Source: Bacillus multifaciens
GTDB lineage: Bacteria > Bacillota > Bacilli > Bacillales > Bacillaceae_G
DNA length: 64,000 nucleotides
Direction: 5' to 3'
Assembly (NCBI RefSeq): GCF_030756675.1
Contig: NZ_JAVBXD010000012.1
Location: forward strand, 1-64,000
Position 1 is the first letter of the stretch. Every line of letters starts with the position of its first letter. Position numbers and translations under genes: made by a program. Shown in pieces: positions 13,525 to 24,101 of the stretch. The notes beneath the pieces were generated by a model. That model had not been told where the DNA came from and searched no databases. It saw nothing but the letters and a program-made list of their open reading frames with translations.

Positions 13525-14100
13525 TTGGAGGAACAACGGTTAATTCAACAAGTAAAACAAGGAGACAAAGAGGCATTTAATCAACTACTTCAACCGTATA
13601 TACAAAAAGCATACCAAACATCTTATCTCATAGTAGATGACAAAGGGTTAGCAGAAGATGCGGTACAGGAATCACTTATACAAACATATGAATCTATCCA
13701 TCGTTTTAATGGAGAGATTGCTTCGTTTAAGACTTGGTTTCATCAAATTTTGATTCATACAACTTTAAAACAGAAACGAAAAAAACGTTTTGGTTTTTTG
13801 CAACCTGAAACATGGTTTCGTATAAAAGATGTGAAAACACCTGAACATAATTATCTCATACAAGAAGAGTCGCAGATGATCCTTGATGCGGTGCAGCAAT
13901 TATCTAGCAAGCATCAAATTGTTATTATACTTTTTTACTATCAAGATTTATCTATTTTAGAAATTTCGGAAGTGTTAAATGTAAAAGAAGGGACAGTAAA
14001 ATCGCGTCTTTATAAAGCGAAAGAAAAGCTGAAGGATTATTTAGCACATACTATTTTTTTAGACCGTGATACGGAGGTGAGTGTATGGATCGAAAAATAA
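13525..14100 (+). CDS. ECF-type RNA polymerase sigma factor
   Basis: A 191-residue protein with region 2 (residues 8-75, AEDAVQESLIQTYESIHRF and SFKTWFHQILIH) and region 4 (about 120-175, SSKHQIVIILFYYQDLSILE then VKEGTVKSRLYKAKEKL). The start is TTG 13525 with AAGGAGG 7 bases before it. It overlaps the downstream anti-sigma gene by 16 bases, the usual arrangement for translational coupling of an ECF factor with its inhibitor. The signal sensed and the regulon are unknown. Confidence 0.85.
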   Translation: MEEQRLIQQVKQGDKEAFNQLLQPYIQKAYQTSYLIVDDKGLAEDAVQESLIQTYESIHRFNGEIASFKTWFHQILIHTTLKQKRKKRFGFLQPETWFRIKDVKTPEHNYLIQEESQMILDAVQQLSSKHQIVIILFYYQDLSILEISEVLNVKEGTVKSRLYKAKEKLKDYLAHTIFLDRDTEVSVWIEK

Positions 14101-15203
14101 AGGAGGCATTTCATGAAAAAGCGAATGGAACTTCATTTCCACGGCACGTAAATATTGAACAACTGTTACATAGTAAGAAGAAAAAAATGACCGTCTGGAA
14201 ACAGTATGTTGCGATAGCCTCTGTCGTAATTTGTTTAGTAGCTACTATATTTGGATTAACGTTTCCTGCTTCTGCGGTAAGTATTCCTGTTATAAGAGAT
14301 ATTTTTAGATTTTTTGATAGCGAAAGAGTTGAACTTCATAACGAAGTTAAAATTAATAAAGAGGAGGGACCAGGACTTCATCATGAGTATAAGAAGTACT
14401 CGAATGAACTCAATCTTACTCAAGAGAGTAACGGAATTAAATTCACTATACATGATGCGATTTATGATGGGCAGACAGTATCTGTAACGTATTCTATTGA
14501 AAGTGATCAAGATTTAGGTGACAATCCACTTACTTTGGACTTTTTAAAAATAAAAGGGGCTGAAGGTACATCGGGAAGTAATGGGATTAAAAAAATAGAT
14601 AACTATAAGTATGTAGGTTTAGTTACTGCTAGTGCTTTGGAGGCTACTAAAGAAGAGAGTGTAAATATGCAATGGATAATAGATAGTATTAAAAACTTAG
14701 ATACGCAGAAAGAAATAAAAGGAAACTGGAAATTTGACTTCACTTTAAAGTCAACAGAACGTAAAGAAAAATTAATCCATAGTAGTGTAGAACAAGATGG
14801 AGTAAAAGTATTTATTGAGAAGTTATCCATATCACCGATGTCATTTATCATTTCGTATAAACAAGAAGTTTCCGAGTTTATGAAAAATAGGTGGGATGAA
14901 GTAAATGTTGATTTGAGAGTTAAAGATGATTTAGGGAATAGTTATGCTGGAGAAGGAAATGGGAGTATACGTGATGAAAGTTCTTATACTTTGAATGGAA
15001 GTAAAACATTTCAAAAAATTAATCCGAATGCAACAAAACTTATTATAACTCCTCATGTTATGTTAAGTAATCACAATGCTGATAACTATGGAGAAGCGGG
15101 AGGGACTGGAAGTGGAGGAAGTAAATTTAATATACTAAAGAAAATCGGTAGCCAAAAAGAAGACCTCCTATTAAAAGATATCGTTATCGAATTGGAAAAG
15201 TAA
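14085..15203 (+). CDS. DUF4179 anti-sigma factor
   Basis: A 372-residue single-pass membrane protein. The cytoplasmic N-terminus (residues 1-43) would bind the sigma factor. The membrane helix is about residues 44-66 (YVAIASVVICLVATIFG). The external part is mostly beta, with the DUF4179 domain after the helix and a second beta region to the end. GGAGGTGAG precedes ATG 14085. The pair resembles the sigma/DUF4179 operons common in Bacillus. The extracellular domain presumably senses a cell-envelope signal; that is inference. Confidence 0.8.
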   Translation: MDRKIKEAFHEKANGTSFPRHVNIEQLLHSKKKKMTVWKQYVAIASVVICLVATIFGLTFPASAVSIPVIRDIFRFFDSERVELHNEVKINKEEGPGLHHEYKKYSNELNLTQESNGIKFTIHDAIYDGQTVSVTYSIESDQDLGDNPLTLDFLKIKGAEGTSGSNGIKKIDNYKYVGLVTASALEATKEESVNMQWIIDSIKNLDTQKEIKGNWKFDFTLKSTERKEKLIHSSVEQDGVKVFIEKLSISPMSFIISYKQEVSEFMKNRWDEVNVDLRVKDDLGNSYAGEGNGSIRDESSYTLNGSKTFQKINPNATKLIITPHVMLSNHNADNYGEAGGTGSGGSKFNILKKIGSQKEDLLLKDIVIELEK

Positions 15204-15213
15204 CATAGTAAAC

Positions 15214-15252
15214 GAAAGGACCGTTTTTTTAGTAGGACGGTCCTTTCTATGA
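15214..15252 (+). terminator. Terminator of the sigma/anti-sigma operon
   Basis: GAAAGGACCGT (15214-15224) pairs with ACGGTCCTTTC (15237-15247). The T-run after the stem is weak, while the loop holds seven T. Confidence 0.65.
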
Positions 15253-15353
15253 TAGTAATTAGGTATTACGTGTCGATATTCGAGATGTGTATACACAAAA
15301 TACTGAAAATTATGTTAAAATAGTGTTAATTGCTTGAAAAGGAGGATTTTATT

Positions 15354-16154
15354 GTGAAAAAAGATCGTCTTGCAAAAATAGATTTAACGAAAAGAATGGA
15401 ATCAAAAAAAATATATAATAAGAAGCTGGAAAAATATCAAATGCGTTTACTTGCGTTGCAGCAGATTTTACGAAAAGAAAAAATAGCTGTTATTTTGGCT
15501 ATGGAAGGCTGGGATGCTGCTGGGAAGGGCGGAGCAATTAAGCGAATTACTGAGCATCTTGATCCGCGCGGATTTCAAGTAAATCCAATTGGTGCACCTG
15601 CTCCTCATGAAAAACGCTATCATTATATGCAACGATTTTGGCGGAAAATTCCGCAATATGGTCAAATTACTATTTTTGATCGCTCATGGTACGGTCGTGT
15701 ACTGGTTGAACGCGTAGAGGGTTTCGCTACAAAGGAAGAGTGGACTAGGGCATACAGTGAAATTAATGATTTTGAAAAACTATTAACGGATGATCGTTAC
15801 ATAGTAGCAAAGTTTTTCTATCATATTAGTAAGGATGAACAGTTAGCACGATTTAAAGAACGAGAGCAAAATCCTCTTAAAAAATGGAAAATTACAGATG
15901 AAGATTGGCGCAATCGAGAAAAATGGGATGAATATGTCGAGGCTATGGAAGATATGTTTGAAAAAACAGACAAACCAAATGCAAAGTGGCATATTATACC
16001 TGGCAATGATAAGTTGTATGCGCGTGTGAAAACATTGAAAGTGATCATTTCATTAATTGAAGATTATTTCTTAGAACATAGTATAGAACTGCCATCATAC
16101 TATCATGAAATGAAAGAAGAAAAGGAAGAGGAAGACGAACAAATAAAGATGTAA
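15354..16154 (+). CDS. ppk2: Polyphosphate kinase 2 (PPK2)
   Basis: A 266-residue enzyme of the PPK2 family, which uses polyphosphate to phosphorylate nucleotides (AMP, ADP or GDP according to subclass). Visible motifs are the Walker A loop GWDAAGKGG (residues 52-60), the Walker B-like DRSWYGR (109-115) and the lid region with REQNPLKKWK. GTG 15354 follows AAGGAGG at 8 bases and is preferred to TTG 15330, which lies upstream of the ribosome site. The Glu/Lys-rich tail (MKEEKEEEDEQ) is unstructured. Monocistronic with its own terminator. Confidence 0.85.
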   Translation: MKKDRLAKIDLTKRMESKKIYNKKLEKYQMRLLALQQILRKEKIAVILAMEGWDAAGKGGAIKRITEHLDPRGFQVNPIGAPAPHEKRYHYMQRFWRKIPQYGQITIFDRSWYGRVLVERVEGFATKEEWTRAYSEINDFEKLLTDDRYIVAKFFYHISKDEQLARFKEREQNPLKKWKITDEDWRNREKWDEYVEAMEDMFEKTDKPNAKWHIIPGNDKLYARVKTLKVIISLIEDYFLEHSIELPSYYHEMKEEKEEEDEQIKM

Positions 16155-16213
16155 GCTGTTAAAGATGGGAATAGTGGTGCAGGAGATAGTGGAAGGAAAA
16201 TAATATAGTAATA

Positions 16214-16256
16214 TAAAGGACTGTCTTATTTTAATGGGACAGTCCTTTATATTTTA
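16214..16256 (+). terminator. Terminator of ppk2
   Basis: TAAAGGACTGTC (16214-16225) pairs with GACAGTCCTTTA (16238-16249), followed by TATTTTA. Confidence 0.8.
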
Positions 16257-16271
16257 GGAACGGTCATTATG

Positions 16272-16319
16272 GAACAATCGTGCTACGATATTTAATTAAA
16301 TACCGTAGCACGATTGTTC
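16272..16319. repeat. Near-perfect 48-bp palindrome
   Basis: GAACAATCGTGCTACG (16272-16287) is mirrored by CGTAGCACGATTGTTC (16304-16319) and the centre TTAATTAA has no loop. Only one base pair mismatches over 24-base arms. It lies 16 bases beyond the ppk2 terminator and about 130 bases before the end of the opposite-strand aldo/keto reductase, and has no T-run. Confidence 0.7.
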
Positions 16320-16450
16320 AGTCTTTAGTACTCTTAATATAGCTGGATTGTTGAAAGAATAACCTATGAAAATAACACTATAATTCAATAATTTTCTAAG
16401 GTGCGCACTGAAGATAGTTCATATCATTAAAAATCCTTTTTATGGCTTCC

Positions 16451-17395
16451 TCATTTTAAAAGTACATTCTCAATTTCTATTAGAACTTCTTCAGGGATTT
16501 GTTTATAAACAGCTTTTACGGTTTCCTCAATTTGTTGAGGAGTGGAAGCACCTGTTAACGCACTTGCTACATTTTTTTGCCGTAGTACCCAAGCAATTGC
16601 TAATTCAGTTAAAGACATGTCGCAAGTTTTAGATATCTCTTCTAATCTTTGTGACGTGAGTAGTAATTCTTTTGTAAAAAGTTTTTTAAAGAACTTATTT
16701 ACATTTGGATTGTTGGCTCTACTTTTCTCAGGAATTTGCTTTTTATATTTACCAGTTAAGATACCTTGAGCAAGGGGACTAAAAACGATTTGTGATATGC
16801 CTAAATTTTCAGAGATAGGGATGATTTTGTCCTCTATGTCCCGCTTCAGCAAACTGTATTCGCATTGGTTCACAATAATTCGATTTATTAAATGCCTATC
16901 AGAGATATGTACTGCTTCCTTAATTTGTTCTGAGCTCCAGTTACTTACCCCAGCATATAGTATCTTACCTTACTTAATTAAATCATCAATTGCTCTTAGC
17001 GTTTCTTCTACTGGAGTTTCATAGTCGTAACTGTGACAATAAAAAATATCAATGTATTCAAGGTTCATTCTTTTTAAACTGGTATGTACTTGCTCAATAA
17101 CATGTTTACGTGATAGCCCTTTGCTGTTAGGACCTTCTCCAGTAGGCCAATATGCTTTTGTTGCTAACACATATTCGTCCCTAGTGAATGATTTTAAAGC
17201 AGATGCTAAAATTCTTTCAGCTTCACCATTTTGATACACGTTTGCAGTATCAAATGAATTAATTCCTACATCAAATGCCTTATGAATCGTTCGTACAGCA
17301 TCTTGTTCTGTCCCATTTTCTCCAAATGTTAAGTAACTCCCTAAACTAATTTCACTAATTTTTAAACCAGATTTTCCTAGTCTGTTATACTTCAA
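16451..17395 (-). pseudogene. Aldo/keto reductase, one in-frame stop
   Basis: A full-length reductase of the KCNAB/YqkF-like branch is readable in one frame from TTG 17395 to TGA/TAA at 16451, interrupted only by TAA at 16972-16970 (codon 142). Catalytic residues are visible before the stop: Asp49, Tyr54, Lys80 and His121. After the stop the same frame reads GKILYAGVSNWSSEQIKEA, the normal continuation, then NQCEYSLL and SPLAQGILTGKYK. A CAA-to-TAA change would explain it. GGGGG lies 7 bases before TTG 17395. NADPH-dependent carbonyl reduction would be its function if read through. Confidence 0.8.
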
Positions 17396-17780
17396 ACATA
17401 TTCCCCCATAATATAATTTAGTATGTATCAAAGTGGAGCGCGGTAGATGCCATTTCGTTTTTATCTGTGAGCGAAAAAAATGTTATTCTCTCAAAATCAC
17501 GGATTATTTTTGGAGTCATTAGTAATTGTGCTTGATGATTTGTATGTTTTTTTGAGAAAACCATATTTTCTAGTATTAAGAAAGGTTGCTACTTTATAAT
17601 GATTTTATCAGATTATTAATAACTTTTGGATTTTTGGTTTGTTTAAAGTGTATGAATGAAAGTGGTTATTCATATTATTGTTGCAGAAATTGGACACAAT
17701 AAATGAGAAACAGGTGCAAAAAATGATGAATAAAATAGAAAAATAGCGATTTTCTTTATGTTAATAAATGGGGTTTATTC

Positions 17781-17809
17781 TTGTGTCAGCTCTATAACTA
17801 TGCTAAAAT
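17781..17809 (+). promoter_or_regulatory. Likely sigma-A promoter of the hflX leader
   Basis: TTGTGT (17781-17786) and TAAAAT (17804-17809) are 17 bases apart. The transcript would start near 17816 and give a leader of about 380 bases before hflX, with an upstream ORF and two hairpins. Upstream, 17432-17780 shows nothing I can annotate. Confidence 0.55.
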
Positions 17810-17842
17810 TTATATAACTTTTAATGAACGGAGGGGTCTCCT

Positions 17843-17884
17843 TTGATCTTAATCAGATTACGTCTCAATACTTTGTGCCAATAA
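17843..17884 (+). CDS. Leader peptide upstream of hflX, 13 codons
   Basis: GGAGGGG (17830-17836) lies 6 bases before TTG 17843, giving MILIRLRLNTLCQ and TAA at 17882. A short peptide with a strong ribosome site in a long leader that also contains a terminator is the pattern of ribosome-mediated attenuation, known for antibiotic-resistance genes and reported for hflX relatives in Listeria. The CCAAT near the stop (17878-17882) can pair with ATTGG (17929-17933), which can alternatively pair with CCAAT at 17953-17957. This is a switch-like arrangement. Confidence 0.55.
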   Translation: MILIRLRLNTLCQ

Positions 17885-17972
17885 TTGAATAGCGCTCAAA
17901 GGCTCTGTCTGTGTACAGAGTAAACGGGATTGGTCTGTCTCTTTAAAGGAACCCAATTGAACTTATATGTGA

Positions 17973-18008
17973 AAAGAGGGGAGGACGAATACGCCCTCTT
18001 TTTGTTTT
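17973..18008 (+). terminator. Terminator inside the hflX leader (attenuator)
   Basis: AAGAGGG (17974-17980) pairs with CCCTCTT (17994-18000), followed by TTTGTTTT. It stands about 190 bases before the hflX start and after the leader peptide, so it must be passed for hflX to be expressed from the promoter at 17781. Confidence 0.65.
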
Positions 18009-18138
18009 GCCTTTAAAACAGAATGATGAGATGCATGTATACTAACATTTTTGTGTAGTATGGTGCTGGATTTGACGACCATTGAACAAGCAAGAAGCGA
18101 TGTTTTTATGTTTATTTGTCGCGTTTTCGTCCGTTTAT

Positions 18139-18166
18139 GAAAAACACAGGTAGGTGTTTTTTGTTT
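18139..18166 (+). terminator. Second hairpin before hflX
   Basis: AAAAACAC (18140-18147) pairs with GTGTTTTT (18154-18161), followed by TTGTTTG. It ends about 20 bases before the hflX ribosome site (ATGGAGGAAT) and is A/T-rich and weak, so it may be a second stop or merely a spacer structure. Confidence 0.4.
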
Positions 18167-18195
18167 GCGCGTAATCGAAATGGAGGAATAAATAT

Positions 18196-19458
18196 ATGGA
18201 ACAGGTAGTACAAAGAGCAATATTAGTCGGAGTGAATTTAAATAGCGAAAGTGATTTCGAATATTCAATGGAGGAGTTAGCGAATTTAACGGAAGCGTGC
18301 GATGTAGAAGTGATAGGGAAAGTAACACAAAATTTACATCGTGTAAATCCATCTCATTATATTGGAACGGGTAAGATTGAAGAAGTGGCAGCGTTCGTGA
18401 AAGAAGCGGATGCAAATTTGGTCATTTTCAATGATGAGTTATCGCCTTCGCAAATTCGAAATTTAGAAGCAGATTTAGATTGTAAAGTGATTGATCGTAC
18501 GATTTTAATTTTAGATATTTTTGCGCAGCGTGCAAAGACGAAAGAAGCGCAATTACAAGTTGAAGTAGCTCATTTGCAATATATGATGCCTCGTTTAATA
18601 GGCCTTCGTGAATCGTTAGGAAGACAAAGCGGCGGTGTTGGTACGAAAAACAAAGGTGTAGGGGAAAAGAAATTAGAGCTTGATCGCCGTAAGATTGAAG
18701 AGCAAATTGCAGCGTTAAATAAAGAGTTAGAAGCGCTTGTTGCACAGCGTCAAACACAGCGTAAACAGCGCAAGAAAAATGAAGTGCCTGTGGTTGCGTT
18801 AGTAGGATATACAAATTCCGGGAAATCAACAACGATGAATGCGATGCTTGAAATGTTTAACGGATCTGCAGAGAAACAAGTATTTGAAAAAGATATGTTG
18901 TTTGCGACGCTTGAAACAGCTGTGCGAAATATTCAATTGCCAGATAACAAATCGTTTTTATTAACAGATACCGTTGGATTCGTTAGTAAATTGCCGCATC
19001 ATCTTGTGAAAGCGTTCCGTTCGACGTTAGAAGAAGTGGCGGAGGCAGATTTATTGATTCATGTTGTGGATTATGCGAATCCGAACTATGAGCATCTGAT
19101 TGAGATTACGAATCAAACGTTAAAAAAAATCGGCGTGGAAAATATCCGGGCAATTTATGCTTATAATAAAGCAGACGTTATTGATATTGAAATTCCAAAA
19201 GTACAAGATGATCGTGTATATTTGTCTGCGAAACAAAAAGTAGGTATTGATGAGCTTGTGCATATGGTTCGCACGCAAATTTATAAAGATTATACAAAGT
19301 GTGAAATGTTAATTCCTTATGATCAAGGACACCTAATTTCTTATTTTAACGAGCATGCTAACGTTTTATTGACAGACTATGAAAATGAAGGCACGAGGAT
19401 TACCGTGGAATGTAAAATAAGTGATTTCGAAAAGTATAAAAGGTATGCAATACGCTAA
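18196..19458 (+). CDS. hflX: GTPase HflX
   Basis: A 420-residue protein of the Obg-HflX superfamily: N-terminal HflX domain (residues 1-170, with the Gly-rich RQSGGVGTKNKGVGEKKLEL region), a coiled-coil linker (160-192), and a G domain with G1 GYTNSGKST (204-212), G3 DTVGF (258-262), G4 NKAD (324-327) and a SAK-type G5. HflX binds the 50S subunit and splits stalled or hibernating 70S ribosomes, notably during heat or antibiotic stress. GGAGGAAT precedes ATG 18196. Expression is probably controlled by the attenuator-like leader. Monocistronic. Confidence 0.9.
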   Translation: MEQVVQRAILVGVNLNSESDFEYSMEELANLTEACDVEVIGKVTQNLHRVNPSHYIGTGKIEEVAAFVKEADANLVIFNDELSPSQIRNLEADLDCKVIDRTILILDIFAQRAKTKEAQLQVEVAHLQYMMPRLIGLRESLGRQSGGVGTKNKGVGEKKLELDRRKIEEQIAALNKELEALVAQRQTQRKQRKKNEVPVVALVGYTNSGKSTTMNAMLEMFNGSAEKQVFEKDMLFATLETAVRNIQLPDNKSFLLTDTVGFVSKLPHHLVKAFRSTLEEVAEADLLIHVVDYANPNYEHLIEITNQTLKKIGVENIRAIYAYNKADVIDIEIPKVQDDRVYLSAKQKVGIDELVHMVRTQIYKDYTKCEMLIPYDQGHLISYFNEHANVLLTDYENEGTRITVECKISDFEKYKRYAIR

Positions 19459-19476
19459 AAAGTTCACATGAAATAG

Positions 19477-19512
19477 GAAAAGAAGAGCTGCTGGAAAGTA
19501 GCTCTTCTTTTC
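19477..19512. terminator. Bidirectional terminator between hflX and the GNAT gene
   Basis: GAAAAGAAGAGCT (19477-19489) pairs perfectly with AGCTCTTCTTTTC (19500-19512). The right arm touches the stop codon of the opposite-strand GNAT gene. Confidence 0.8.
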
Positions 19513-20074
19513 ATGATCTTTTCGTTGCATATATACATGTATCTCTTAATTCAGCCCCATCTATTGATACACTATTATTCTCTAAAATACCTTCTAATTT
19601 AAAACCTAATCTTTCGGGTATGGCACGGCTTTTGACATTTCTTGAGTCACAACGAATTTCTATTCGATTTGCTTGTAATTCATGAAAAGCAAAATCTACA
19701 ATTTCTGTAACAGCTTCTGTCATGTAGCCTTTTCCGCTAAAACGAGAGTGAATCCAATAACCAATTTCAAATTTCGGAATATCCCAGTTAATGCGGTGTA
19801 ACCCTGAAGAGGCAACAAACTCCCCTGTGTCTTTAAGGAAAACGAGCAATCGTAAATCTTCACGTGCCAAAAATTTCACGTGAGAATCTCTAATATTTGC
19901 TTCTACTTCTTGTTCTGTTTGTTCTTTTTGAGCAAAAGGCATCCAAGGTTTTAATTCTTCGATAGATTCATTGATAGCGTTATATACTTCTTTTCCATCT
20001 CCAGGTCTTGGCATCCTTATGAGAAGTCTTTCCGTATAGAACTCAGAAGGGAAATTTAATAGCAGTGGATTCAT
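19511..20074 (-). CDS. RimJ/RimL-type GNAT acetyltransferase
   Basis: A 187-residue acetyl-CoA-dependent N-acetyltransferase. The N-terminal ERLLIRMPRPGDG and later FEIGYWIHSRFSGKGYMTEAV (acetyl-CoA binding loop, about residues 100-120), then ANRIEIRCDSRNVKSRAIPERLGF are the landmarks of the RimJ/RimL subfamily, which acetylates N-termini of ribosomal proteins or small molecules. The substrate is unknown. GGAGCG lies upstream of ATG 20074. It is transcribed alone. Confidence 0.8.
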   Translation of the reverse strand: MNPLLLNFPSEFYTERLLIRMPRPGDGKEVYNAINESIEELKPWMPFAQKEQTEQEVEANIRDSHVKFLAREDLRLLVFLKDTGEFVASSGLHRINWDIPKFEIGYWIHSRFSGKGYMTEAVTEIVDFAFHELQANRIEIRCDSRNVKSRAIPERLGFKLEGILENNSVSIDGAELRDTCIYATKRS

Positions 20075-20333
20075 AAGAAACGCTCCTTATTTGTTATTTT
20101 ATATTATGATACATGAATGGATGTATCTGGTAAATGTTTTTTCTGAATTTTAATAAAAATAAAGTTTTACTAGGTTTTAGGAATTATGTTTATTTTGAAA
20201 TGTTGTAAGCAGAGAAGTGGAAAAAAAGGAAGAAGAGGTATAGAATAGGTTTTGTTTAAAAAGTCAGAAAAATAAAAGTGTGTGAAACATATGCAGAGGT
20301 TGTTTTCAGCACAAGAGGAGAGGAGCGTGTAGG

Positions 20334-21536
20334 ATGCAGACAATAACAAAGCCGAATGCGGTGGAGGCACCAACGATTTACCGTATTTTATTTGCGATTA
20401 GTTTAGGGCACTTTCTTAATGATTCGATGCAGGCAGTTGTACCGGCGCTGTTTCCTATTTTAGAAAAGTCGATGAATTTATCCTATATGCAGGTGGGATG
20501 GATTGCCTTTGCTCTTAATATGACATCATCAATTATGCAGCCGGTGTTTGGGATGTATTCAGATAAGAAGCCTTCCCCGTATTTGCTGCCACTAGGAATG
20601 TTTTCAAGCATGCTTGGGATGATTGGGCTAGCGTTTGCACCGAACTTTTTTATTGTTATCTTATCTGTTTTATTCATTGGACTTGGATCCGCAGTCTTTC
20701 ATCCAGAAGGCGCACGTGTTGCTTATATGGCAGCAGGAGCAAAGCGTGGTTTAGCACAATCCATTTATCAAGTTGGAGGAAATACAGGAAATTCGCTTGC
20801 GCCAATTTTTACGGCACTTGTATTTGTTCCGCTTGGACAAATTGGAGCAGTATGGTTTACGGGCTTTGCGATGGTTGGAATTATCTTACTGTACTTTGTT
20901 TCAACGTGGTATAAAGGAGAGTTAGCAAGCGGGGCCGTAAGAAGGAAGAAACGTGCTGCATTAGAAGCTGACAGTTTAGTAATAAGCAGCCGAATTAAGT
21001 TTGTTATTGTATTACTTGTATTCTTAACGTTTGTTCGCTCATGGTACGGAGCAGGGATTGGAAACTTTTATCAGTTTTATTTGATCGAGCATTACGGATT
21101 ATCTATTAAAAATGCACAGTTTTACGTATTTGCTTTCATGATTGCCGGCGTACTTGGTACGTTCTTTGGCGGACCGTTAGCAGATCGGTTTGGAAAGCGA
21201 AATATTATTGTTTTTTCTATGCTTGGTTCAGCCCCATTAGCACTGTTATTACCGCACGTTTCACTCGTCTGGGTTGTTCCGTTGTTTATTTGCATTGGGT
21301 TTATTAGTTCGAGTAGCTTCAGTGTGATAGTTGTGTATGCCCAGGAGCTTGTTCCCGGGAAGGTTGGTATGGTATCTGGATTAATTGTCGGACTTGCATT
21401 TGGACTTGGAGCGTTAGGAGCAGTTGTACTTGGGAAATTGGCAGATATATATAGCCTTAACTTTATTATGATACTATGCAGTATGTTACCGTTAATTGGA
21501 TTATCATCATGGTTATTGCCAAATGACCGTAAATAG
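20334..21536 (+). CDS. MFS transporter, Fsr (fosmidomycin resistance) type
   Basis: A 400-residue protein with 12 predicted helices. The N-terminal SLGHFLNDSMQAVVPALFP and the following FGMYSDKKPSPYLLP are the distinctive helix 1 and loop 2-3 motifs of the Fsr-type drug exporters; GGPLADRFGKRNIIV is the second-half repeat. Members export fosmidomycin and related compounds, though many have unknown natural substrates. GAGGAGAGGAGCG precedes ATG 20334. Monocistronic, with a terminator shared with the MurJ-like gene. Confidence 0.8.
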   Translation: MQTITKPNAVEAPTIYRILFAISLGHFLNDSMQAVVPALFPILEKSMNLSYMQVGWIAFALNMTSSIMQPVFGMYSDKKPSPYLLPLGMFSSMLGMIGLAFAPNFFIVILSVLFIGLGSAVFHPEGARVAYMAAGAKRGLAQSIYQVGGNTGNSLAPIFTALVFVPLGQIGAVWFTGFAMVGIILLYFVSTWYKGELASGAVRRKKRAALEADSLVISSRIKFVIVLLVFLTFVRSWYGAGIGNFYQFYLIEHYGLSIKNAQFYVFAFMIAGVLGTFFGGPLADRFGKRNIIVFSMLGSAPLALLLPHVSLVWVVPLFICIGFISSSSFSVIVVYAQELVPGKVGMVSGLIVGLAFGLGALGAVVLGKLADIYSLNFIMILCSMLPLIGLSSWLLPNDRK

Positions 21537-21576
21537 ATGAAAAGAGTCTAGAGGTATATTTATTTCATATTCATAC

Positions 21577-21613
21577 AAAGAGGTGTAACTTATATTTCAA
21601 GTTACACCTCTTT
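21577..21613. terminator. Bidirectional terminator
   Basis: AAAGAGGTGTAACTT (21577-21591) pairs perfectly with 21599-21613. It separates the convergent Fsr-type and MurJ-like genes. Confidence 0.85.
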
Positions 21614-21618
21614 AATAG

Positions 21619-23253
21619 TTATCGCTTTAATTTTTTCAACAATGGTAGTCGATTAATACGATCACCGAGAATGTCAGAAGCAAGTCCGCTTGTAAATACA
21701 AAAGCGAAATAAACGAGTCCTCCAAGGGCACCACATACGACCACAATTAATAATGACTCCATATATGATTGGCCAGGAATTAACCATTTTAATAACGTTT
21801 TTGCACCAACTACTACAGCAGACATCGCAGCCGAGTAAATGGTAATAAGTAATATTGTTTTACCAGTCTTTACGATGTTAAACTTTGTATATTTCACAAT
21901 GCAGTATAACATGATGACATCAGAAACGAGGTAACCAAGTATAGTTCCTAATACAGCGCCGTGCCCACCGAGTAGGTATAGAAGCGGTGTGTTGGCAACA
22001 ACTTTTACAATAATACCAGCAGTAAAAGCAATCATTGTTTTACGTTGATAATCAATGCCTTGTAAAATTGCAGCTGATACGGTGAAGATCGCACTCATTA
22101 CAGCGGATGGTGCATACGAGATTAAATATTGTGACCCATCTAATGCTGTATTGTGATCAAAGTATACCATGCGAAATGCATCGTATGCGATGCTCGCAAG
22201 CCCAAATGAAGCTGGAATTGTGAAAAATAATAAGACTGTAAAAATCTTTTCAATTTGGTTTTGCAGTTCATCTAATTTACCACCCGTAAAGGACTGTGTA
22301 ATTGCCGGGATGATTGAAAGTGAAAATCCTGTTGCTAGTGATGCTGGTATCATAATCAACTTTTGAGCATAGTTCGTAATGTAAGCGAACACAGCGTTTG
22401 CTTTATCAAGCGGTGTGCCTATTGCTCGCAGTGCATCAGCAACTGTATATTGATCCACTAATGTATAAAGTGGAATGGCAATACCTACAAAGACAATTGG
22501 AATTGCATATCGAAGCAGTTCCATATAAATCTTTGTTAAGGAGAATGAAGAAGAGCGTGTTTTTCGTTCTCCTTCTGGCGCACGAAGTCCATTGTATTTT
22601 TTCCAGTACATAATGAGCATGGAAACACTGGCAATTGCTCCAATAACAGCGCCAAATGTTGCAACTGCTACAGAAGATGCGACTGATCCGCCCAATAGTT
22701 TAGAAACGATAAAGCTTCCAACTAAAATAAAAATAACACGTGCAATTTGTTCCACAACTTGTGAAACAGCACTTGGTTTCATATATTGAAAACCTTGGAA
22801 ATAACCGCGCGTAACGCTCATTGCTGGCACAATAATAAGTGCAAAGCTTAGTGCACGCATTGTTAATGTTACATCTTCGACGAATCCAGGCTCTGGTGTT
22901 TTAGAGCGAATAATTAATTCTGATACGTATGGTGCGCCGAAAAATAAAATTAAGAAACCGAGGAATCCCATAAACATCATTACTTTTAAGCTTGAGATGT
23001 ATAATTTTTTACTTGTACTGTAATCTCCTAAAGCGTTATATTTGGCAACAAATTTTGAAACGGCGATCGGAATACCTGCCGTTGAAAAACTTAGTAAAAT
23101 CCCATACCAGGAGTACGCATAAGAATATAAAGCAACTCCTTCGCTCCCAACTAAAGCTTGGAATGGGAAGAAATAAATAAAACCTAAAATACGTGAAATC
23201 ATTGTCGCACCGCTTAGCAGCGCAGTGCCTTTCAATACTTTTGAAGTAGACAA
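21619..23253 (-). CDS. MurJ/SpoVB-like flippase (YtgP type)
   Basis: A 544-residue polytopic protein with about 14 helices, of the MOP superfamily (polysaccharide_synt/MurJ). Length and the start LKGTALLSGATMISRILGF match B. subtilis YtgP, which has lipid II flippase activity. The conserved RGYFQGFQYMKPSAVSQVVEQ segment is present (about residues 150-170). TTG 23253 is the start, with AGGAGG 9 bases upstream. SpoVB is the close relative acting in the cortex, so the paralogue assignment is an inference from length. Transcribed alone. Confidence 0.75.
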   Translation of the reverse strand: MSTSKVLKGTALLSGATMISRILGFIYFFPFQALVGSEGVALYSYAYSWYGILLSFSTAGIPIAVSKFVAKYNALGDYSTSKKLYISSLKVMMFMGFLGFLILFFGAPYVSELIIRSKTPEPGFVEDVTLTMRALSFALIIVPAMSVTRGYFQGFQYMKPSAVSQVVEQIARVIFILVGSFIVSKLLGGSVASSVAVATFGAVIGAIASVSMLIMYWKKYNGLRAPEGERKTRSSSFSLTKIYMELLRYAIPIVFVGIAIPLYTLVDQYTVADALRAIGTPLDKANAVFAYITNYAQKLIMIPASLATGFSLSIIPAITQSFTGGKLDELQNQIEKIFTVLLFFTIPASFGLASIAYDAFRMVYFDHNTALDGSQYLISYAPSAVMSAIFTVSAAILQGIDYQRKTMIAFTAGIIVKVVANTPLLYLLGGHGAVLGTILGYLVSDVIMLYCIVKYTKFNIVKTGKTILLITIYSAAMSAVVVGAKTLLKWLIPGQSYMESLLIVVVCGALGGLVYFAFVFTSGLASDILGDRINRLPLLKKLKR

Positions 23254-23501
23254 AATACTTCCTCCTACTCTGGTTGCTTAAGAATCATCTTTTTCTACTA
23301 TAAACTTGTCTTAGTATTTTATAAAGTAAAATAATCAATTTATTATTACAGAATTTTTACAAAGTGTGTTTGTTTGGGGAATTTTAATAGATGGTTTGGG
23401 TATTCGTAATAATACAATCGTTTACAGAACATGAAGATGCAATTAGGAAAAATTTATCATATAATAAGGGTAATTCAAAAGAGATATTAGGGGGTGTGGA
23501 T

Positions 23502-23585
23502 ATGGCAATTACAATGAAATTGCTAGATACTGCAGCGTCTCATGCAAAGCCAAGTATGGAAAAGGCGATACTTTGTGTGAGGTAG
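23502..23585 (+). CDS. Possible micro-ORF, 27 codons
   Basis: ATG 23502 follows GGGGGTG at 4 to 5 bases and encodes MAITMKLLDTAASHAKPSME plus seven residues. It has good ribosome-site quality, but I recognise nothing. The frame is open upstream to 23391 with no better start. It could be a real small protein or the start of a lost gene. Confidence 0.3.
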   Translation: MAITMKLLDTAASHAKPSMEKAILCVR

Positions 23586-23685
23586 AGATGTAACATACAA
23601 TCGCCTAAATGGATTTGTATCATTTCTCTTATATTTGGCTTTGCACCTTATTTAAATGAAACATAAAAATAAGGGGCGAGCGGAA

Positions 23686-23949
23686 ATGAAATATGTAAAA
23701 GCAGCGACTGTTTTACCTGAACAGTTAATTATAGAAATTCAAAAGTATGTACAAGGTGAAACGATTTATATTCCAAAACAAGAAGATGCTTATCATAAGT
23801 GGGGTACACGCTCTGGAGGGAGAAAGCAACTTGATGATCGAAATAAAGCAATTAAATATGCTTTTAAAAACGGAACAGCAATTTGTCAATTAGCTGAAGA
23901 ATATTTTCTCTCCATTGAAACCATTAAAAAAATCGTGTACTCAAAATAA
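23686..23949 (+). CDS. CD3324-family (Mor-like HTH) protein
   Basis: An 87-residue basic protein. The N-terminal half (LPEQLIIEIQKYVQGETIYI then KWGTRSGGRKQLDDRNK) and the C-terminal helix-turn-helix (GTAICQLAEEYFLSIETIKKI) match the CD3324 family of small Mor-like regulators. ATG 23686 has AAGGGGCGAGCGGA upstream; the frame is open to 23656 with a weaker start. The role is unknown, and DNA binding is likely. Confidence 0.7.
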   Translation: MKYVKAATVLPEQLIIEIQKYVQGETIYIPKQEDAYHKWGTRSGGRKQLDDRNKAIKYAFKNGTAICQLAEEYFLSIETIKKIVYSK

Positions 23950-24101
23950 ATAAAGATAAATTGATGGCGCTGCGTACTTTATATAAATATGCAGTGCTTT
24001 TTTATGTAGAGTTTGATTCTAAATTATCTTCTGCATTTTATAAAAAAAATTAATCGTATAAAATAAAAAATAGATAAACAATTTTGTATGGAGTGATAGG
24101 A

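Follow-up and report, generated by a model that had tools for sequence, protein, structure and literature searches.

The window, i.e., the whole stretch of 64,000 nucleotides of Bacillus multifaciens analyzed here (assembly GCF_030756675.1, contig NZ_JAVBXD010000012.1, positions 1 to 64,000 of the forward strand), contains a gene for an HflX-type GTPase that is preceded by a leader with a putative promoter, a short upstream open reading frame (uORF), four predicted helices (P1 to P4) and two terminator-like hairpins (T1 and T2). The parts of the leader, including a strand (AT2) that could serve as an antiterminator, are located as follows:

17781-17809, plus strand: putative promoter, with a -35-like TTGTGT (17781-17786) and an extended -10, TGCTAAAAT (17801-17809)
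17830-17836, plus strand: Shine-Dalgarno sequence of the uORF, GGAGGGG, its 3′ part overlapping helix P1
17833-17846, plus strand: 5′ strand of P1, in the Shine-Dalgarno, spacer and start region of the uORF
17843-17884, plus strand: uORF of 13 codons plus stop, MILIRLRLNTLCQ, with a TTG start; RLR codons at 17855-17863
17849-17937, plus strand: match to covariance model R1 (90.7 bits), the sole one in the window at E ≤1; the window is itself a training row of R1
17854-17866, plus strand: 5′ strand of P2, overlapping the arrest-motif codons (from pairing in the window and the family swap test)
17871-17901, plus strand: predicted hairpin P3, CTTTGTGC (17871-17878) with GCTCAAAG (17894-17901), with the uORF stop codon inside (from the family alignment)
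17902-17921, plus strand: predicted hairpin P4, 17902-17908 with 17915-17921, which in the family would hide the antiterminator strand AT2
17904-17914, plus strand: 5′ strand of AT2, complementary to the 5′ arm of T2 (11 pairs, three of them G-U)
17926-17937, plus strand: 3′ strand of P2 and conserved anchor, GGGATTGGTCTG (from family comparison)
17942-17954, plus strand: 3′ strand of P1, TTTAAAGGAACCC (from pairing and swap tests)
17971-18003, plus strand: predicted terminator T1, GAAAAGAGGGG...CCCTCTTTTT (-12.5 kcal/mol by folding)
18140-18162, plus strand: terminator-like hairpin T2, just 5′ of hflX, with the 3′ strand of AT2 at 18144-18154
18196-19458, plus strand: HflX GTPase of the hflXr clade, 420 aa

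This succession of promoter, uORF, T1 and T2 is the one described in a sequence-only reading of the locus, which had recognized the layout of an attenuator, and the layout is conserved beyond chance (see below). The strong ribosome site and the 13-codon frame proposed there were recovered, the latter with its TTG start, as was the second hairpin at 18140, which is weak in the window (T2, -5.6) and ends 34 nt upstream of hflX. A generic sigma-70 scan did not list the promoter at 17801-17809, and a consensus terminator scan listed no plus-strand terminator in the leader region, T1 included; the promoter and T1 therefore rest on folding and comparison, which for T1 means the predicted hairpin and the T1-type hairpins of other elements. 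The stretch 17816-18012 folds more stably than its shuffles (z -2.72), with one of 200 shuffles reaching the same quality. The CCAAT and ATTGG letters, in which alternative pairings had been seen, could pair in the window by their sequence, but this pairing is conserved in just two of 49 related elements and was rejected as the switch. No Rfam 15 family reached its gathering threshold in the whole window, and at E ≤5 the region 17750-18250 gave a lone minus-strand match (17.8 bits, E 4.3). Beside the leader, two adjoining open frames lie on the minus strand between 16451 and 17431, of 140 aa (16451-16873) and 153 aa (16970-17431); they look like one aldo/keto reductase split in two, so that this neighbor of the leader is apparently a broken gene.

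The protein encoded downstream of the leader belongs to the HflX family (TIGR03156, 457.9 bits). Its closest solved structure is 8a57, listed as GTPase HflX and presumably the Listeria HflXr on the ribosome, with 490.3 bits as against 272.6 for the next one. In a tree of 87 proteins, the window protein, 8a57 and 70 relatives are separated from 15 second copies with full support (100/100), and the window protein is 54.6% identical to Listeria HflXr and 40-45% to the second copies; HflX matches above the cut-off number two in 15 of 20 genomes and one in the remaining five. Because the window protein falls with the Listeria chain and apart from the second copies, the gene is, as judged from its sequence, hflXr rather than the general hflX copy. 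The highest identity to the window protein among the 70 loci is 77% (Paenibacillus), no close relative of the window being among them, and the hflXr product of Priestia taiwanensis pairs with it in the tree (96/86). A megablast search of window positions 14000-24000 against plasmids gave no match, and no match from Listeria was found at E 1e-150 among 398 genomes. In Listeria, hflXr is reported to protect against erythromycin and lincomycin (Duval 2018; PMC6310831).

An element of the kind seen in the window precedes hflXr at 49 of 70 loci by pattern search and at 51 of 70 by R1 at ≥39 bits. R1 was trained on 26 leaders over 89 positions and gave no match in the 15 loci of second hflX copies. 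Counting the window and 48 loci, 49 distinct elements were available for comparison. In 48 of them, the 45 nt upstream of CGGAGG contain an extended -10 (TGnTAnnnT), a pattern present in 3.2% of random 45-mers drawn from these loci; this bears out the promoter of the sequence-only reading. A K/R-x-K/R motif (+X+), which is the macrolide/ketolide arrest motif, is found in the uORFs of 46 elements and is absent in L007, L042 and L066; the second basic codon sits 10 nt before P3 in 39 of these 46 uORFs, among which that of the window alone starts with TTG. In L007 (4591-4728), the uORF is frame-shifted (MIYIIPVSPLCAAN) and without +X+, and the R1 match still amounts to 81.6 bits.

At ≥39 bits, the element is missing at 19 of the 70 hflXr loci, which include the main Peribacillus clade, Priestia taiwanensis, five Lachnospiraceae-type loci, and a locus with just 249 nt of upstream sequence (L029). 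The Peribacillus and Priestia taiwanensis loci in question are L011, L016, L022, L023, L025, L026, L027, L034, L037, L057, L070, and L009. Weak R1 matches of 19-23 bits lie about 3-5 kb upstream of Peribacillus-type hflXr genes (L023:1801-1889, L025:1758-1845, L034:254-340, L011:1801-1889) and are probably due to chance.

Pairing within the leader was assessed by a swap test, which sets the own partner of a helix against partners exchanged between species. P1, in which the Shine-Dalgarno and spacer region of the uORF pairs with a strand shortly 3′ of the GGTCTG anchor, gave z -12.2 (n = 49) and z -7.0 (n = 18, thinned), and P2, in which the arrest codons pair with CGGGATTGG, gave z -8.4 (n = 49) and z -4.6 (n = 18, thinned), with none of 2000 permutations as good for either helix. 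At the hardest thinning (seven elements), z was -3.9 for P1 (0/2000) and -2.5 for P2 (7/2000). The P2-P4 structure has 88.4% paired cells on a 26-row alignment (A2), as compared to at most 50.3% for slid versions, P4 alone reaching 96.6%; 10 of its pairs show two-sided change, as against 4.6 in shuffles that leave kinship in place (0/500). RNAalifold on the full alignment (A1) recovered P4 alone (seven pairs). In the window, P1 pairs at -12.5 (swap mean, -10.3), P2 pairs in a shifted register, and the minimum-energy fold is without P3 and P4, with other pairing in their place. By these comparisons, the leader belongs to a family of structured RNAs, of which it represents one copy.

Both terminator-like hairpins were examined for upstream strands that might compete with them. 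T1 is present in 22 of the 49 elements, the window included, and none of seven upstream segments paired with its arms in an own-specific manner. The GGTCTG linker is a doubtful candidate for a T1 antiterminator (AT1): it complements the T1 arms better than shuffled arms (-9.75 vs. -7.51, 19 loci), but the pairing is not own-specific (z ~0), and in the window with a stalled ribosome it is unfavorable, costing 8.7 kcal/mol (-22.8 vs. -31.5). For T2, a hairpin was assigned in 46 of 49 elements, of the CACAG type in 43 of the 46. Complementarity exists between its 5′ arm (CACAGGCAG type) and the part of P4 formed by the 5′ strand and the loop (CTGCCTGTG type), which would make P4, the P4:T2 pairing and T2 mutually exclusive. 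The swap test for P4:T2 gave z -8.0 (n = 46) and z -4.3 (n = 17, thinned; 0/3000 permutations), and among the seven upstream segments only P4 paired so strongly with the T2 arm, the others reaching z -2.5 at most. Matching changes on both sides are illustrated by L024 (CACCTGTG/CACAGGTG) and L069 (CACCCGTG/CACGGGTG).

The competition was also modeled by folding nascent transcripts as far as the T2 5′ arm while masking the nucleotides that a ribosome would cover. A ribosome stalled at +X+ raised P4:T2 by more than 0.5 pairs in 31 of 46 RNAs and lowered it in one; with a threshold of two pairs and RNAs of ≤400 nt (35 of 46), the stall mask gave 22 increases and no decrease, as against 2 and 13, respectively, of 105 random masks. 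Since masks for initiation and for the stop codon raised AT2 as well (24 and 16 of 35 RNAs), folding does not single out the stall. In the model, occupancy of the uORF by a ribosome, stalled or otherwise, would free the antiterminator. For the window itself, the switch was not predicted by folding: under the stall mask, AT2 went from 0.0 to 0.4 pairs and P4 from 0.1 to 6.5, a shift contrary to the one required by the T2 model, and the P4:T2 pairing of the window is weaker than that with swapped partners (-12.9 vs. a mean of -14.8). An exclusive terminator/antiterminator pair is supported by swap tests and folding at the level of the family, not by the window copy.

The same leader occurs in front of other genes. 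A blastn search against plasmids returned 12 records at 79-83%, and the same search against phages gave no match. The leader is followed by a putative RNA methyltransferase gene and then msr on two Priestia plasmids, by erm(D) on a Bacillus licheniformis plasmid, by mef(F)-msr(G) on plasmids of Lysinibacillus, Exiguobacterium and Macrococcoides, and by an MFS gene with an msr(G)-like gene on a Metabacillus plasmid. All seven plasmid leaders inspected have an RLR uORF (e.g., MTHSMRLRFPTLNQ), the P1 pairing and at least two U-tailed hairpins; the 5′ arm of the last hairpin contains CACA, and P4 pairs with T2 at -11.0 to -16.8 kcal/mol.

In the order of G004, 134 of 397 genomes gave R1 matches at E ≤0.001, as did 156 of 296 in the order of G001 and 96 of 398 in the class of G004; the three draws overlap. 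From the matches listed, 160 loci were examined, 60 of them best-first (30 + 30, about one per genome) and 100 hand-picked further down; the downstream gene was taken as the longest ORF within 900 nt, which was missing in three cases. Among these matches, 154 of the 157 copies with a downstream ORF precede a gene of a macrolide/lincosamide-resistance type, in eight classes: HflXr (67), Msr (20), Mph (20), Mef (14), RlmA-like (13), Erm (13), macrolide esterase (4), and Lmr(B)-like (3), with three others. The names HflXr, Msr, Mef and RlmA-like rest on blastp against a single reference per class, those of Mph, esterase and Lmr(B) on one representative and that of Erm on two, most of them below exact-name cut-offs. 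Because six of the 26 training leaders of R1 are plasmid leaders of erm, msr, mef and methyltransferase genes, the recovery of those classes is in part built in; the training set included no Mph, esterase or Lmr(B)-like leaders.

Several properties of the leader hold across these classes. The P1 swap test over all classes gave z -20.4 (152 non-redundant of 154 copies), and P1 was significant in each class of at least four copies bar the esterases (n = 4; 93/500). P4:T2 reached z -8.1 (140 copies, 132 non-redundant) and, without hflXr, z -6.3 (76 copies), values that are blurred by the choice of hairpin: of the 140 copies, 78 were assigned a CACAG-type hairpin and 20 a T1-like one. By class, z was -4.3 for Erm, -3.5 for Msr, -2.5 for RlmA-like and -2.0 for Mph genes; P4:T2 was not significant for Mef (-1.2) and esterase genes (0.3), and Lmr(B)-like copies were too few. 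A +X+ uORF was assigned in 146 of 157 copies by a picker that favors +X+, including none of the four esterase and one of the three Lmr(B)-like leaders, which have other short peptides in its place. These leaders (L167, L229, L239, L248, L208, L215; e.g., MGTVNFDRLYAAN) look as if the sensor peptide had been exchanged within the same RNA body.

Several of these features have precedents in characterized or predicted systems. The nearest system in print, as far as its published description goes, is uORFC-6-1, a predicted motif of Bacillales that combines an RLR uORF with a structured RNA, primarily before hflX (PMC8632094). Like the window leader, it has a covarying RNA 3′ of the start codon; the structure described for its 51 representatives lies wholly downstream of the start codon, whereas P1 of the window uses the region upstream of it, and compared with the text description, the family described here adds the P4:T2 pairing and seven further gene classes. 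That an attenuated hflX is known from Listeria, as the sequence-only reading had stated, is borne out by the experimental work on rli80-hflXr of L. monocytogenes, in which an hflXr-clade gene is under transcription attenuation with an RLR uORF (14 aa, as compared to 13 in the window), a terminator upstream of the gene and alternative structures overlapping the uORF, and for which the drug response and mutants of start codon and structure are described (PMC6310831). The further suggestion that the present version had not been described holds in part: B. cereus is already named among the carriers of the hflXr subfamily (Duval 2018; PMC6310831) and uORFC-6-1 is known (PMC8632094), but in a search that covered few subscription journals and preprints, no paper was found that unites the leaders of hflXr, erm, msr, mef, mph and esterase genes as one structured RNA. 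As far as searched, an RNA family with P1 over the ribosome site of the uORF, P2 on the stall codons, P3 with the stop codon and P4 hiding a T2-complementary strand, as predicted here from sequence comparison, appears to be new.

Among leaders of other genes, the erm(D) leader of B. licheniformis (NZ_CP021671.1) matches the window leader at 79.8% over 97 nt (blastn E 5e-12) and is also in the training set of R1. The erm(K)/erm(D) leaders share the RLR uORF with the window, and L102 shows P1, hairpins of the T1 and T2 kinds with U-tails, and P4:T2; the gene is a different one, and the letters of P1 and T1 differ. Two adjacent terminators are reported for erm(K) (PMC4335068, citing Kwak 1991), an arrangement resembled by the two U-tailed hairpins upstream of the gene in L102 and in the window (T2 being weak there), where termination is predicted. 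Streptococcal mef(E)/mef(A) resemble the window in an RLR peptide (MTASMRLR) and in transcription attenuation, and the mef(E) leader is described as having no homology to erm(K) beyond the peptide (PMC4335068). A likeness between Erm(D/K) and Mef leader peptides is noted in two papers (PMC4335068; PMC10314930), the former including Msr(A). In B. subtilis, tlrB (yxjB) has an RYR uORF before a 23S rRNA methyltransferase gene and, as predicted for the window, a structure that shuts the leader's own translation, a hairpin being proposed to repress further leader translation; unlike the window model, tlrB also hides the ribosome site of the gene and needs NusG pausing (PMC6851288).

Given the hflXr clade of the gene, the conserved +X+, the homology of the leader and the partner genes of 154 of 157 copies among the matches listed, as well as the P4:T2 pairing, the leader is very probably a ribosome-mediated transcription attenuator, in which the stalling of a ribosome on the uORF by drugs of the macrolide or lincosamide type would turn on hflXr. 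Drug-induced attenuation of this known kind is the best reading by far. The model draws on features that emerge from comparison, i.e., the uORF, the promoter, P1, P2, P3/P4, the P4:T2 complementarity, the gene clade, and the partner genes. Without drug, a ribosome would complete the 13 codons and depart, whereupon the RNA would close into P2, P3 and P4; P1 would then cover the uORF's own Shine-Dalgarno region, and transcription would stop at T1 or T2. With drug, the ribosome would stall at R-L-R with the L codon in the P site and the second R in the A site, comparable to the arrest of ErmDL at R-L-R, for which Leu7 in the P site and Arg8 in the A site are described (PMC8298421). The stalled ribosome would cover the 5′ strands of P2 and P3; in most relatives, the freed P4 strand might then pair with the T2 5′ arm, and RNA polymerase would continue into hflXr, the product of which presumably splits stalled ribosomes. 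By limiting access to the uORF, P1 might restrict drug sensing to early ribosomes, as proposed for tlrB. The drug response, the order of events and, for the window, which terminator matters and how it is overcome are what we infer here.

Three other explanations were weighed. The window leader could be a decayed relic, in which T1 nearly always ends transcription and the switch is dead. Such decay would fit its TTG start, the weakness of T2, a P4:T2 pairing that falls short of the swap mean, and folding that yields no AT2 switch and an increase of P4 under the stall mask; a relic is nevertheless unlikely, as the R1 score still amounts to 90.7 bits (for a training row), the leader retains the arrest codons as well as both hairpins, and P1 still pairs more favorably than the swap mean. 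A leader that senses translational trouble in general, such as slow-down, heat or starvation, rather than drugs in particular, would suit HflX as a general, heat-shock rescue factor (PMC6310831), and the initiation and stop-codon masks favor the antiterminator in folding, too. However, the conserved arrest motif (46/49) is of the macrolide/ketolide type, the RNA is likewise found before genes of the Erm, Mph, Mef, Msr and esterase types, and the leader is absent from the 15 second-copy hflX loci examined, which makes a general sensor very improbable.

Slightly less probable still is a leader that works on translation, by hiding the ribosome site of hflX, rather than by termination. Systems of the erm(C) type act in this way (PMC6310831), and tlrB and vmlR combine both modes (PMC6851288; PMC9226507). 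Against this stands the position of the hairpins with U-runs, which end tens of bases 5′ of the gene, as T2 does in the window; the distance from U-run hairpin to gene has class medians of 25-97 nt in the six largest classes.

Drug-induced attenuation in the window might be one instance of a broader arrangement. A tree of 155 leader rows shows 34 changes of gene label as compared to a minimum of seven, and starred branches force at least five label changes for Mph and at least three each for Msr and HflXr, at the low resolution given by 90 columns and 20 starred branches of 144 inner ones; judged by these sequences, the leader has probably been exchanged between genes. On balance, we favor, with some reservation, the reading that in Bacillales and Paenibacillales one attenuator RNA, related by descent, serves the macrolide/lincosamide resistome as a modular chassis. 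Such a chassis would combine a swappable sensor peptide (RLR, KFR, RVR, RIR, and, in front of esterase and some Lmr(B)-like genes, even peptides without +X+), a fixed body of P1 to P4 that closes the ribosome site of the uORF and thereby confines drug sensing to the first ribosomes, a T2 antiterminator provided by a strand of P4, and a swappable effector of at least eight unrelated classes, and it would have been exchanged several times, also on plasmids.

The hflX copy of the window, a second copy of a ribosome-splitting factor, would share its kind of drug-sensing RNA with classical macrolide-resistance genes, and the macrolide-type leader in front of hflXr supports the idea of this HflX clade as a dedicated resistance factor. 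The pairing of P4 against T2 is a testable switch offered by the leader family. Since R1 flags resistance-type genes outside its training set (Mph, esterase, Lmr(B)-like), it can also point to unrecognized resistance genes. Three family leaders, L172, L231 and L210, lie next to a sugar ABC ATPase gene, a short ORF and an OsmF-like gene, respectively, with no macrolide-type gene found there and, in L210, no uORF found by the picker; these are possibly remnants.
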